A DNA stretch of 64,000 bases from Pseudovibrio axinellae (GTDB taxonomy: Bacteria; Pseudomonadota; Alphaproteobacteria; Rhizobiales; Stappiaceae). Below are positions 46,070-52,128 of this stretch, one piece after another. The stretch is taken from positions 62,001 to 126,000 of the forward strand of contig NZ_FOFM01000008.1 in the NCBI RefSeq assembly GCF_900110875.1, given 5' to 3'. Every line of letters starts with the position of its first letter. The stretch's first letter is position 1. The notes under the pieces are model-generated. The model was given only the letters and a program-made list of their open reading frames with translations. It was not told the origin of the DNA and did not search any database. The position numbers and the translations under genes are program-made.

Positions 46070-46170
46070 CACATGTTTTCCTGCGCACATTCTCGCCAAT
46101 TTCGAGGAGCGCGCCAAGCCTCTGTTACTTTCTATATGTGAACTCAGCACCCGTGATAAAGGACAGTTCC

Positions 46171-49104
46171 ATGGCGAAATCGCCAAAACACGATACACAA
46201 AATTCTCCCGCACGTGCTGATCTCATGAAACAGATTACGGTACGCGGCGCTCGCGAACATAATTTGAAAAATGTGGATCTGGACCTTCCACGCGATAGCC
46301 TCATCGTTATGACTGGCCTGTCGGGTTCTGGCAAATCCTCCCTTGCCTTCGATACAATTTATGCCGAGGGGCAGCGCCGCTACGTTGAAAGCTTGAGCGC
46401 ATACGCCCGCCAGTTTTTGGAGATGATGCAAAAGCCGGACGTCGACCAAATTGATGGCCTGTCGCCCGCGATCTCAATTGAACAAAAAACCACTTCCAAA
46501 AACCCGCGCTCCACCGTCGGCACCGTTACCGAGATCTACGATTACATGCGCCTTCTTTTCGCGCGTGTCGGTATCCCATATTCCCCAGCAACCGGCCTTC
46601 CAATTGAGAGTCAGACAGTCTCCCAAATGGTTGATCGTATTTTGATGATGGAGGAAGGCACACGCCTTTATCTTCTTGCCCCCATCGTACGTGGCCGCAA
46701 AGGCGAATATAAAAAAGAACTCGCTGAGCTTATGAAAAAGGGCTTTCAGCGCGTTAAGATTGACGGCGAATACTACGAAATTGCCGATGCTCCCGCGCTC
46801 GACAAAAAATTCAAACACGATATCGACGTCGTTGTTGACCGGATCGTGGTCCGCGAAGACATGGCGGGCCGGCTTGCCGACTCGTTGGAGACCGCACTAG
46901 AACTCGCAGAAGGACTGGCAACAGCTGAATTTGCTGACCAGATAGACGAAAAAGGCAAAGCAAAACAGGTCGTTTTTTCTCAAAAATTCGCCTGTCCAGT
47001 CTCTGGGTTTACAATCCCAGAAATCGAACCTCGCCTGTTTTCATTCAACAACCCCTTCGGCGCTTGTCCAACCTGTGACGGCCTAGGAACAAAGCTCGCC
47101 TTTGAGGCGGAACTGGTGGTACCAGACCAATCGCTCTCTTTGCGTGGTGGGGCAATTCTTCCCTGGTCAAAAACCGGCTCCACATCCCCTTATTACACCC
47201 AGACGCTCGAAGCACTGGCTAAGCACTACAAGCAGCCAATGACAAAGGCCTGGAAGGATCTACCGGAAGACTTCCGCAATGCTGTGCTGTTTGGCAGCGG
47301 CAATACAAAAGTACAATTCGTTTATGACGACGGCACACGCTCTTACAAAACGGAAAAACCGTTTGAAGGCGTCGTTGGCAACATCGAACGCCGCTGGCGC
47401 GAAACAGAATCGCAGATGGTGCGCGATGAACTCTCCCGCTACCAGTCAGATCATGCCTGCGACAGTTGCCACGGCCACCGCTTGAAGGCTGAAGCTCTTT
47501 GCGTAAAGATTGGCGATCGCCATATCGGCGAGATCACCGCCCTCTCCATCAAGACCGCCCACGAATGGTTTTCCAGCATCGACGAAAAACTGTCTGGAAA
47601 GCAGAACGAAATCGCCTACCGCATTTTGAAAGAAATCCGCGAGCGACTGAAGTTCCTCAATGACGTCGGGCTCGAATATCTGTCCTTGGACCGTGCATCC
47701 GGAACACTTTCAGGCGGCGAAAGCCAACGTATTCGTCTCGCCTCACAAATCGGTTCGGGGCTGACAGGCGTTTTGTATGTTCTGGATGAGCCGTCCATCG
47801 GCCTTCACCAGCGCGACAATGCCCGCCTGCTTGAAACGTTGAAGCACCTACGCAATCTTGGCAACACAGTTATTGTGGTGGAACACGACGAAGACGCTGT
47901 TTTAACAGCCGATTACGTGGTCGATGTAGGCCCTGGAGCAGGCATACACGGCGGACAGGTTGTTGCGCAGGGAACACCTGAAGAGGTGATGGCCAACCCA
48001 GCGTCCCTAACGGGTAAATACCTGTCTGGCAAAATCAGCATTCCGCAGCCAGATGAACCGCGAAAGATTGACAAAAACCGCCAGATTAAGGTTTTCGGCG
48101 CTCGCGGCAACAACTTGAAGGATGTGGATGCGACGATCCCACTGGGCACATTCACATGCGTGACCGGCGTATCTGGCGGTGGCAAGTCAACATTCCTCAT
48201 CGACACGGTCTACAAGGCAACCGCCCGCCGTCTGAACGGTGCGCGTGACAACCCCGCCCCGCATGACCGCATCGAAGGCCTTGAGCGACTGGATAAGGTC
48301 ATCGACATTGACCAATCTCCGATCGGCAGAACCCCGCGCTCCAACCCAGCCACCTACACCGGCGCCTTCACGCCGATCCGCGAATGGTTCGCTGGCATGC
48401 CAGAGGCAAAAACACGCGGTTATGCACCAGGGCGCTTCTCCTTCAACGTCAAAGGCGGGCGATGCGAAGCCTGTCAGGGGGACGGCGTTATCAAGATCGA
48501 GATGCACTTCCTTCCCGATGTGTACGTCACCTGCGATGTGTGTAAGGGCAAGCGCTACAACCGCGAAACGCTTGAGGTGCTGTTCAAAGGAAAATCCATT
48601 GCAGACGTTTTGGATATGACCGTTGAAGAAGCTGCCTCCTTCTTCAGTGCGGTGCCTTCCATCCGCGATAAGATGGAAACACTTTCACGCGTTGGCCTTG
48701 GCTATATTAAAGTCGGTCAGCAGGCCACCACATTGTCTGGAGGCGAAGCTCAGCGCGTTAAGCTGGCTAAGGAGCTCTCCAAGCGCTCAACGGGCCGCAC
48801 GCTCTACATTCTGGATGAGCCAACCACAGGGCTCCACTTCCATGATGTTGCCAAGCTGCTGGACGTTCTTCACGAGCTGGTGGATCAAGGCAATACCGTG
48901 TTGGTGATTGAACACAATCTGGAAGTTATCCGCACAGCCGACTGGATTCTCGATCTGGGACCAGAAGGAGGAGACGGCGGCGGCACCATTGTTGCAACTG
49001 GGCGCCCAAGGGATGTTGCTGAAGTCCCAGAAAGCTACACCGGTCACTTCCTCAAAGAGCTGTTTGAAAGACGAAACACCAACAGGCTTGATGCAGCAGA
49101 GTAA
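46171..49104 (+). CDS. uvrA: Excinuclease ABC subunit A
   Basis: 977 residues. Damage-recognising ATPase of nucleotide excision repair. First half: Walker [15 protein letters not shown] near residue 50, a zinc module [18 protein letters not shown]...CPTC near 270-300, signature LSGGESQRI. Second half: Walker [15 protein letters not shown] near 675, zinc module [14 protein letters not shown]...CDVC, signature LSGGEAQRV and [12 protein letters not shown] 46171 has AAGGA upstream; the longer frame starts at a GTG. SOS control is expected from the LexA box at 46055. Confidence 0.98.
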
Positions 49105-49143: not shown

Positions 49144-49485
49144 ACCTCTCCACGCCAACGCACCCCTCACCTCGCCTCTGGCATAAGCGCTAAACAGCGG
49201 AGAATATCTGCGCAGCGTTGGACCAGTGCAAAGCCCCCAATTATTGAGATATCATTAAAATTCCAGGCTCAATTGAAGCTTAGCCCATGCATTTCTTTTG
49301 AGGTATGCAGATTTGTGCTTCAGATCACAAAATTACTGCAGCGCACAATCTGTCTTATTGTCATTTATGTCTATTTTTTGGTCGGATACGACAACATTTG
49401 ACACAATGCTATGCATATTTTGCATATCGGACATGCGAAATGATGTGATGCACAATACGAAACTCTTTTGTATAAACCAAATCAA
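49144..49485. other. Gene-free stretch upstream of the hairpin RNA locus
   Basis: 342 bases with no convincing gene. A possible sigma-70 promoter is TTGACA (49398-49403) with TGCATA 17 bases on (49421-49426), inside the inverted repeat TATGC...GCATA. A second candidate -10, TATAAA at 49471-49476, lies ten bases before the first hairpin but has no good -35. Either could start the small RNA. Confidence 0.35.
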
Positions 49486-49652
49486 GGCCGCTGAGGGACT
49501 CCTCCCAATTAACCTCGGCAGCCTAACATATAATCTTCAGGTGGCACCTCCTCCCAAGTCACTTGCAGATGTACAAACAGGGATTTCCTCCCAAGTCTCT
49601 GTTTACTAGCTTCGCCCGTCGTTCCTCCCATCGACGGGCGTTAGCTGTTTTT
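49486..49652 (+). ncRNA. Tandem anti-Shine-Dalgarno hairpin RNA (cuckoo/CcsR-like)
   Basis: Four hairpins stand in a row, each with CCTCCCA in its loop: 49486-49523 (GGCCGCTGAGG / CCTCGGCAGCC), 49533-49570 (ATCTTCAGGTGGC / GTCACTTGCAGAT, loop ACCTCCTCCCAA), 49575-49604 (AAACAGGGA / TCTCTGTTT) and 49613-49640 (CGCCCGTCG / CGACGGGCG, perfect). The CCTCCC cores are 49, 37 and 37 bases apart. The last stem, extended by AGCT/AGCT, is followed by GTTTTT, fixing the plus strand and the 3' end. The stems differ in sequence while the loops agree, which argues for selected structure. Cuckoo RNAs (such as CcsR of Rhodobacter) have two such hairpins, so this may be two in tandem. No DUF1127 gene, their common partner, is nearby. 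Confidence 0.65.
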
Positions 49653-49910
49653 GGGGCCTACTTTCTTCTAAACCCAAGACGCCCCCCAAAAAAAATACAC
49701 ACCCTGATAGATATGCCCTCAATTTTGGAATGGAGCGCACGCGCTAACAAATCCTTTTGTGCTGGCTGCGGACGACAAGAAGCAAAAGCGGCAGCACAAG
49801 GCATAAGCTTACTCGTTTCAGCGGGTTTGGCATGGCTATGCTTAAAGAAGGATCAGGGGCAGCGCTCAAAACTGCTATGCAACTAACCTGCGCAGCGCAG
49901 CTCCTCAAAG
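49653..49910. other. Gene-free stretch downstream of the hairpin RNA locus
   Basis: 258 bases. A run GGGGC (49653-49657) can pair with GCCCCCC (49680-49686), and CCTTTTGTGCTG (49753-49764) with CAGCACAAGG (49792-49801). These may be further RNA structure or the 3' end of the lipoprotein transcript; no gene is supported. Confidence 0.35.
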
Positions 49911-50576
49911 TCATCTGACATCAGGAGCTTCAAGGTCAGAGCTGGTCATCTTCAACCATTTGGACATATGCAGGATATCGGGCGGTTCACCGTTGCTCAG
50001 ACGCCAGCTGTCCACCACCCACGCAATGTCTGTGGTTGTGTCCACAATAACAGCTGAGGCGTGAGGGTATTTTCCATCAAAGAAATACCCGCGAGAGGCC
50101 GGGCGCGTCACGCGGTGGTATTTGAGCCAGCCCTGCGAGCTTGCATAGATCAAAAGCCCTGCGGTATTGGTCGCCTCATCAATACAGTCCATCTGCCCCC
50201 ATACATTGCCGCTCTTCATATCAAGCCCGCCAATATCATTGGAAGACCCTACAATCGGCCCAACCCGCCTCTCCTGCCATTGAACGGCCCTCGAAATTGC
50301 AGCGCGCTCTGCACGCGAGCTATCGCTTCCACGCAAGAGGATTGCGCGGAGTGTGACTTTGTCGTGTTTGCTAAACGTGACGGGAGAAAGGTATTGGCAC
50401 CCAAACCCATGGCAAATGTAGAGTGTATCACCGCTGTTTTCCAGAGCGCCCATTTGCTCATACCAGGAGCTTGGTGAAAGGTTAATTTGGCTCATACATG
50501 CACTTAGCCCGATTGCGCCAATTGCAATCAGCAGAGCCCGAGACGTCACCATCATTTTCTTTTTCAAAAAATACAT
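49911..50576 (-). CDS. Lipoprotein of unknown function with a possible Cys-His-Asp site
   Basis: About 221 residues. A basic N-region (MYFLKKKMM) and hydrophobic stretch lead to the lipobox LSAC, so it should be an outer-membrane or periplasmic lipoprotein. I do not recognise the family. In the second half DCIDEATNTAGLLIYASSQG, PHASAVIVDTTTD and WVVDSW stand in the order Cys, His, Asp of transglutaminase-like or papain-like enzymes; this is only suggestive. No good Shine-Dalgarno was found: starts at 50606, 50576 or 50555 are all possible. It is divergent from trmFO. Confidence 0.65.
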   Translation of the reverse strand: MYFLKKKMMVTSRALLIAIGAIGLSACMSQINLSPSSWYEQMGALENSGDTLYICHGFGCQYLSPVTFSKHDKVTLRAILLRGSDSSRAERAAISRAVQWQERRVGPIVGSSNDIGGLDMKSGNVWGQMDCIDEATNTAGLLIYASSQGWLKYHRVTRPASRGYFFDGKYPHASAVIVDTTTDIAWVVDSWRLSNGEPPDILHMSKWLKMTSSDLEAPDVR

Positions 50577-50730
50577 GTGTTTTTGTGAATCACGTTGCAC
50601 AACCATGCAAGATTGATGACCTAAATGATTGAACTGAGCAAGTTCAGAGGCTAAGCAATTCGCAAGAGAAAACCACTTAGGCTTCTATGGACGTTTTAGC
50701 GCAACAGAAGCCCAGCCGATTGGATAGGAA

Positions 50731-52128
50731 ATGACAAAGCAACCCATACACGTGGTTGGTGGTGGCCTGGCAGGCTCCGAGGCAGCATGGCAGATTGCAG
50801 AAAAAGGCATCAAAGTCGTTTTGCACGAAATGCGCCCAACGCGTGAAACAGACGCTCATAAAACAGACGGCCTTGCGGAGTTGGTTTGCTCAAACTCATT
50901 TCGTTCAGACGATGCTGAAAACAATGCAGTAGGATTGCTCCACGCTGAATTGCGCGCTGCTGGCTCCCTGATCATGAAATGCGCAGATGCTAACAAGGTG
51001 CCTGCTGGCGGCGCTTTGGCAGTAGACCGTGACGGCTTCTCTCATGCCGTCCAGTCTGCACTGGAAACGCATGAAAACATAGAAATCATCCGCGAAGAAA
51101 TCACCCAGATCCCGCCAGCTGAAGATGGTCAGGTGATTATGGCAACAGGTCCGCTCACATCCCCAGCTCTGTCGGAAGAAATTCTGCGTGTCACCGGTGA
51201 AAATTCCCTAGCCTTCTTCGACGCAATCGCACCCATCATCCATACCGAGAGCATCAATATGGATGTGGCGTGGTTTCAGTCCCGCTATGATAAAGTCGGG
51301 CCCGGCGGCACCGGTAAAGATTACATCAACTGCCCGATGGATAAAGAGCAATACGAAGCCTTTATTGATGCCCTGATCGGCGGCGAGAAAACCTCGTTTA
51401 AAGAATGGGAAGAAAACACCCCATACTTCGACGGCTGCCTGCCGATTGAAATCATGGCAGAACGTGGCCGCGAGACCTTGCGTCATGGTCCAATGAAGCC
51501 AATGGGCCTCACCAATGCCCACCAGCCCGACATCAAGGCCTATGCGGTTGTCCAGCTGCGCCAGGATAATGCTCTGGGCACGCTTTACAATATGGTTGGC
51601 TTCCAGACGAAACTGAAATACGGCGCTCAATCCGAAGTGCTGCGCATGATCCCGGGTCTGGAAGAGGCGCAATTTGCCCGCCTTGGCGGCCTGCACCGCA
51701 ACACCTTCTTAAACTCGCCGCGCCTCCTGGATGATCAAATGCGCCTCAAAGCGCTGCCCCATATCCGCTTTGCTGGGCAAATCACCGGCTGTGAAGGATA
51801 TGTGGAATCAACAGCTGTTGGGTGCATGACCGGCCTGTTTGCAGCTCATCAGGCACTTGGAACCGACATCGCTCCCCCGCCAGTAACAACCGCGTGCGGC
51901 GCGATCGTCAACCACATCACCGGTGGTCATATCGACCGCGAAGACGGCTCAGGACCACGTTCTTTCCAGCCGATGAACATCAACTTCGGCCTGCTGCCTC
52001 CACTGGACGAAATGCCTAAGCATCCAGAAGGAAAACGCTTGCGCGGCAAAGAAAAAACACGCCTGAAAAAGCAGGTCATGGCCAAACGCGGTCTGGATGA
52101 TTTTAAAGCCTGGGTCGCAACAGTCTAA
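50731..52128 (+). CDS. trmFO: Methylenetetrahydrofolate-tRNA-(uracil-54-C5)-methyltransferase
   Basis: 465 residues. Flavoprotein that makes 5-methyluridine at position 54 of tRNA from methylenetetrahydrofolate. FAD motif [20 protein letters not shown], then [20 protein letters not shown] with the conserved Cys, [13 protein letters not shown] and [20 protein letters not shown]. Folate-type TrmFO is usual in Firmicutes and alphaproteobacteria. Single gene, ended by the shared terminator at 52157. Confidence 0.97.

Follow-up and report, generated by a model that had tools for sequence, protein, structure and literature searches.

A candidate four-hairpin small RNA gene related to alpha-r14/NfeR1 at the uvrA-trmFO locus of Pseudovibrio axinellae

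Downstream of uvrA, the window analyzed here (64,000 nt of Pseudovibrio axinellae DNA) carries an array of four stem-loops, each presenting CCUCCC. With a probability of about 0.87, we interpret this array as a stand-alone small RNA (sRNA) gene that belongs to the cuckoo family, within its alpha-r14/NfeR1 branch, and that would be governed by an inferred LsrB-type activator and act by selective silencing. The original prediction of a multi-hairpin anti-Shine-Dalgarno (aSD) sRNA related to the cuckoo group is supported by the predicted fold and by a match to the Rfam ar14 model. Newly added is a Pseudovibrio member of the family with an NfeR1-type promoter motif at the uvrA-trmFO locus.

The hairpin array and its genomic setting

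The window sequence contains CCTCCC cores on the forward strand at 49501, 49550, 49587 and 49624, reproducing all four positions given in the original prediction. The motif was not enriched across the whole window, with 12 occurrences on both strands vs 22.16 expected. Order-1 simulation of 300 windows never packed more than three motifs into ~136 nt, and reached three in 4 of 300 windows, compared with the four observed; the tight spacing can thus be considered non-random. Folding of positions 49480-49660 gave a minimum free energy (MFE) of -69.7 kcal/mol (z -5.65); shuffled sequences averaged -46.54, and none of 200 was as stable. In the MFE fold every core lies within the loop of its own stem, in agreement with the four stem-loops first proposed, and the resulting array occupies 49485-49647 (+) with CCUCCC exposed in each hairpin.

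Hairpin 1 (49485-49525, +; loop CUCCUCCCA, CCTCCC at 49501-49506) lies outside the Rfam ar14 match described below. The three hairpins of the ar14 model fall, in order, on hairpin 2 (49533-49572, +; loop CCUCCUCCCA, CCTCCC at 49550-49555), hairpin 3 (49575-49604, +; loop UUCCUCCCA, CCTCCC at 49587-49592) and hairpin 4 (49607-49652 including its T-run, +; loop UUCCUCCCA, CCTCCC at 49624-49629). The loop contexts of the four hairpins, i.e., ACTCCTCCCA, CCTCCTCCCA, TTTCCTCCCA and GTTCCTCCCA, share UCCUCCC on differing stems, consistent with the earlier observation that loops agree while stems differ. One loop has the full CCUCCUCCC, one has CUCCUCCC and two have UUCCUCCC.

The T-run that had been noted after the last hairpin corresponds to TTTTT at 49648-49652, directly 3' of the last stem, and hairpin 4 is a likely intrinsic terminator. 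Its absence from the output of a simple terminator scan is probably due to a loop length above the limit of that scan. Given this likely terminator, the array is probably one RNA of ~170 nt, rather than two fused RNAs. The proposal of two RNAs fused or in tandem is not supported, given the single promoter-like block and the single terminator-like hairpin, a hairpin count that shifts by single units (four or five in the genus, mostly three per array in other genera), and the previous publication of three- and four-hairpin members as one family.

The array lies 380 nt downstream of uvrA (46138-49104, +; NCBIfam NF001503, 1610.5 bits). On its other side lie a convergent gene for a 231-aa protein (49911-50606, -), which has no Pfam or NCBIfam match and is present at the same locus in many relatives, and trmFO (50731-52128, +; NCBIfam NF003739, 675 bits). 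A relative of squalene/phytoene synthase was the fourth neighbor scanned. The position downstream of uvrA was thereby confirmed, and no DUF1127 protein was found among the four scanned neighbors (uvrA, the 231-aa gene, trmFO and the squalene/phytoene synthase relative), as had also been stated; the adjoining, co-transcribed DUF1127 gene characteristic of CcsR/CIN1 RNAs is thus missing from these four. This result bears on a possible origin from Rhodobacter-type CcsR/cuckoo RNAs, according to which two two-hairpin RNAs would be fused, be induced by stress and depend on RNase E and a DUF1127 protein for maturation. The loop motif is of the same kind, and the published family does include two-hairpin Rhodobacter RNAs. 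Nevertheless, such an origin appears very improbable in view of the scanned neighbors, the stepwise variation in hairpin number, the array's own LsrB-type promoter motif, and a best-matching model that is the three-hairpin ar14 over hairpins 2-4, with CcsR set apart by description.

Relationship to known families and conservation

A default Rfam scan of the window returned tRNA only. In a permissive scan, 49529-49646 matched the whole of RF02344 (ar14) at 52.9 bits (E 1.1e-8). As this score does not reach the ar14 gathering score of 58.8, we regard the array as a diverged ar14 relative and not as an Rfam-grade member. Matches of the permissive scan to sX13, ST7-OT4_2, mir-129 and SorX fell far below their cut-offs and were rejected. 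Among 61 genomes, 46 had ar14 matches at E <= 0.001 and 21 had matches above the cut-off, while the 14 control genomes had none. In this search, which used stricter speed filters, none of the 16 genomes of the genus gave an ar14 match above the gathering score.

With four hairpins and one full CCUCCUCCC, the array departs from the ar14 pattern of three hairpins with unpaired CCUCCUCCC; it does show the cuckoo pattern of two to four adjacent hairpins with a common loop motif and freely varying stems. The cuckoo definition of 2015 reportedly places the loop motif CCUCCUCCC in each hairpin. A 2015 paper summed up the cuckoo motif as two to four hairpins (PMC4504443). Earlier, in 2011, Reinkensmeier and colleagues described the three- and four-hairpin RNAs SmelA075 and SmelA099, whose loops are CCUCCUCCC-like, linked both to Rhodobacter RS0680a and reported that a single family with a variable number of modules had been proposed (PMC3927594). 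Since SmelA099 was published at that time, the four-hairpin form is not new.

Judged by covariance model and promoter motif, with CcsR assessed by description, the nearest relative of the array is alpha-r14/NfeR1 (RF02344; NfeR1 is Smr14C2/SmelC397 of Sinorhizobium meliloti). Both have aSD loops on variable stems within one sRNA gene, a terminator-like last hairpin, TGCA-N6-GCAT at about -72, and transporter-type targets, which are predicted here. Both also occur in multiple copies per genome, six being described for S. meliloti and further arrays being present here. Unlike alpha-r14, the array has four hairpins instead of three, carries UUCCUCCC in loops 3 and 4, scores below the Rfam cut-off and lies between uvrA and trmFO. 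By description, SmelA099 and the cuckoo family (two to four hairpins) resemble it in having consecutive aSD-loop hairpins, four in SmelA099 as here, and a variable module number, whereas the loops of SmelA099 are described as CCUCCUCCC-like. CcsR1-4 of Rhodobacter sphaeroides (RSs0680a-d), four homologous copies, likewise carry an aSD motif in each stem-loop, but are described as having two stem-loops each (PMC3927594) and, unlike the window array, as being processed out of a single transcript that also carries the DUF1127 gene ccaF1 and is driven by an RpoH promoter. AbcR1/AbcR2 (alpha-r15) also direct aSD-like seeds at transporter mRNAs, and AbcR1 is described as LsrB-driven; they constitute a separate Rfam family and are Hfq-bound (PMC8844928), and ar15-like candidates are found elsewhere in this genome.

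By blastn, the array was detected in 13 of the 61 genomes, its own included, all within the genus. Two more congeners (G007 and G011) were recovered via the ar14 search, while G010 yielded the array by neither blastn nor the ar14 search. In total, 15 of 16 genus genomes carry the array, with four stemmed hairpins in 14 and five in one (G012); G011 has an additional fifth motif without a stem. In Pseudovibrio sp. Alg231-02 (L127), array and promoter align with those of the window, and in P. exalbescens (L128) the neighbors are as in the window.

Across ten copies (nine distinct), stem pairs were standard in 97.9% of cells vs 23.9-48.2% when the partner was slid. Four pairs were changed on both sides, a count reached by 3 of 500 shuffles, which related sequences can outdo without any structure. 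All four lie in hairpins 1 and 2: three pairs in hairpin 2, and one in hairpin 1, whose 11 pairs were kept in 98.0% of cells over nine distinct congeneric sequences, with one-sided changes in six. Hairpins 3 and 4 say little about covariation because they barely vary, 7 of 9 and 13 of 14 pairs, respectively, being invariant. Further pair types were no more numerous than in shuffles (374 of 500 reached the count), so the covariation is modest. The check proposed at the outset, i.e., the fate of the stems in relatives, thus found them preserved, and hairpins 1 and 2 show compensatory changes in places. These data weigh on whether the array consists of uvrA terminators or structural repeats without an sRNA function, a reading that would suit its distance of 380 nt from uvrA and the T-run of hairpin 4. 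It is, however, extremely improbable in the face of identical loops on divergent stems with some compensatory changes, a promoter-like block that separates uvrA from the array and hardly varies among close congeners, and expression of a relative that is described as proven by Northern blot.

In other genera, 24 central arrays at 23 loci were counted: 17 had three motifs, three had four, three had two and one had nine, the count of stemmed motifs covering 17 of the 23 loci. Many of these 23 loci carry additional arrays close by, and uvrA, the 231-aa gene or trmFO adjoin several other-genera loci with above-cut-off ar14 matches. The locus with nine stemmed motifs has them in one row (L035; G027:C13), and five ar14 matches were seen within ~1.2 kb at G020:C5:60017-61239.

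A promoter-like block upstream of the array

A conserved promoter-like block, absent from the original prediction, occupies 49412-49476 immediately 5' of the array. It starts with a candidate site for the LysR-type regulator LsrB, TGCATATTTTGCAT (TGCA-N6-GCAT; 49412-49425, +), which spans about -72 to -59 relative to the inferred start. Overlapping this box, the congener alignment places GCATATCGGACAT (49422-49434, +), which matches the LsrB consensus GCAT-N3-TG-N3-T with one mismatch; the consensus is matched in full in a few congeners, e.g., L011, L038 and L050. The same alignment gives a -10-like element TATAAA (49471-49476, +), and we infer that transcription starts at ~49484, within a conserved TCAAG. 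A sigma-70 consensus scan of the window called no promoter here, so the -10 element and the start rest on the alignment. From the TGCA-N6-GCAT box through TATAAA to TCAAG, the block is nearly invariant among close congeners.

For S. meliloti nfeR1, an LsrB motif TGCA-N6-GCAT has been described at -72 to -60, with evidence from gel shift and fusions (PMC10746234), and GCAT-N3-TG-N3-T is the consensus given for LsrB-type regulators (PMC8844928). If transcription begins at 49484, TGCATATTTTGCAT lies at -72, as in alpha-r14/NfeR1. The exact box was present 74 nt 5' of the first TCCTCCC in 12 of 15 genus arrays, with non-exact boxes retaining 7 of 8 letters in G007 and 6 of 8 in G001 and G013. Within the searched range, the exact TGCA-N6-GCAT box occurred in none of 49 arrays at the 23 loci of other genera, indicating that this promoter is not common to the whole family; boxes with 7 of 8 letters were found at three central arrays of other genera (L014, L018 and L026).

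A contig scan for the box together with two aSD motifs yielded at least 119 stretches, the 80 named being mostly Rhizobiaceae by title; the titles among the matches listed include Rhizobium, Sinorhizobium, Agrobacterium, Brucella and others. Arrays were re-counted for 116 of the at least 119 stretches, L092, L094 and L167 having failed the chain rule. Among the matches listed, the box lay 72-75 nt 5' of the first motif in 87 of these 116 arrays, which held three motifs in 90 cases, four in 13, two in 11 and five in two. Eight of the 13 four-motif arrays among the matches listed had no adjoining uvrA, the seven with a known title being Rhizobium or Agrobacterium. Matches titled outside the Alphaproteobacteria (L061, L092 and L131) seem to be coincidental or to reflect unrelated repeats; L061 and L131 are counted within the 116 arrays.

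Further upstream, at 49312-49331 and ~160 nt 5' of the inferred start, there is a palindrome, TTTGTGCTTCAGATCACAAA, that was seen by eye in nine of ten close congeneric copies and could be a CRP-like site.

Two other arrays were observed in the same genome. Beside prmA, one of them (L045; G000:C64:34200-36400) has five CCTCCC motifs at 953-1151, with TGCAAAAAATGCAT 88 nt 5' of the first motif and a strong terminator-like last hairpin. Congeners have similar arrays at L047, with the same box, and at L055, where the box is not exact; at L049, six motifs occur with no box. The other (L044; G000:C59:273900-276000) is a two-hairpin array at 1013-1070 with loops CCTCCCCCTCCC and CCTCCC and an ar14 score of 44.4 bits. 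A different palindrome, TCTGCAT-N6-ATGCRGA, lies upstream of it and was also seen by eye in the congeners L046, L053 and L054.

Proposed mechanism, candidate targets and implications

We propose that an LsrB/VtlR-like activator of the LysR type would bind TGCA-N6-GCAT and give rise to one transcript of ~170 nt (~49484 to 49655), predicted to fold into four hairpins, the last of which would be the terminator. Presented in each loop, UCCUCCC(A) would pair with GGGAGGA at or beside the Shine-Dalgarno sequence of selected mRNAs, thereby blocking their translation, and the loops would probably be interchangeable seeds. The activator, the loop redundancy and the translational block are inferred by analogy with work on S. 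meliloti, where NfeR1 is reported to silence ntrBC and two periplasmic-binding-protein mRNAs via three redundant aSD loops (PMC10746234, PMC8844928, PMC7143759). Likely targets are nutrient-uptake mRNAs, i.e., those for solute-binding proteins and permeases, together with some catabolic genes; the sRNA would therefore lower the capacity for uptake in response to a redox or nutrient signal.

The perfect loop complement TGGGAGGA occurs 3-10 nt before an ATG at 35 places in the genome, vs 13 for the reversed pattern. Thirty of the 35 places were analyzed as loci, and 20 of these open an ORF of 60 aa or more; L207 and L208 represent a single place and were both excluded from the target set. A control octamer, TAAGGAGA, gave 26 places and 18 ORFs of at least 60 aa, 17 of them distinct. 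By Pfam, solute-binding proteins accounted for 5 of the 20 target ORFs vs 0 of the 17 controls (one-sided Fisher p 0.036, uncorrected). The solute-binding start regions of the DctP, TctC and SBP_bac kinds are those at L205, L211, L221, L223 and L226. Three more of the 20 target ORFs were named as transporters; with these added to the solute-binding proteins, the comparison is with one permease among the 17 controls (one-sided Fisher p 0.019, uncorrected). With small numbers and one control octamer, this enrichment gives a weak hint of NfeR1-like targets, solute-binding proteins being the class of the two NfeR1 targets described as tested first (PMC8844928). These target sites could also be used by AbcR-like RNAs.

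We rejected ntrB as a conserved target, its site being favorable only in some of 13 genus genomes. In the genome under study, the start region of ntrB, which is a key target in S. meliloti, paired only modestly (-17.8 kcal/mol with H2), and 24 of 200 shuffles were as good. Among 20 ntrC loci with above-cut-off matches, ntrB was recognized in 13, all in the genus.

As regards the activator, a LysR-type gene of the same genome (L254) lies beside an ar15-like (AbcR-like) stretch, with GCAT-N3-TG-N3-T between them; the ar15-like candidate scored 32.1 bits vs a cut-off of 40. This gene is a candidate LsrB, not a firm identification; in S. meliloti, lsrB is described as lying beside AbcR (PMC8844928). 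Elsewhere in the genome, a weak ar15-like stretch without CCTCC loops was seen directly 3' of a DUF1127 gene (L255; G000:C53:948425-948516).

The target sites also bear on a general decoy, i.e., an RNA that titrates Shine-Dalgarno-bearing mRNAs, or partners a G-rich sponge RNA, with no selective silencing. Four near-equal sites would suit such a role, and in Caulobacter the aSD-bearing alpha-R8 sRNAs are reported to be bound by the G/A-rich RNA CrfA (PMC12559287). On the other hand, the tested relative NfeR1 is described as silencing specific mRNAs with redundant seeds, and perfect 8-nt sites at 3-10 nt 5' of an ATG number only 35 in the genome, so that we consider a decoy unlikely. The decoy claim of the original prediction found no support of its own, the NfeR1 mechanism being pairing with mRNA start regions.

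Among the open-access literature on Pseudovibrio sRNAs, as judged by title and start of abstract, we found no publication on this sRNA. As it resembles an sRNA family known from root-nodule bacteria, the assignment is helpful for annotation but not surprising. Rfam's gathering score misses these sRNAs in the genus. More speculatively, hairpin number may be a tuned trait, with valency setting how many mRNAs each sRNA silences. This tentative idea, which we would not put forward as the probable one, stems from the four seeds at this locus (five in one species) vs mostly three in other genera, and from a second array in this genome, which shares the promoter motif and carries five motifs. The array points to an LsrB/NfeR1-type circuit in Pseudovibrio, and related loci, with their three-, four- and five-hairpin forms, provide a natural series on seed number vs strength or breadth of silencing.
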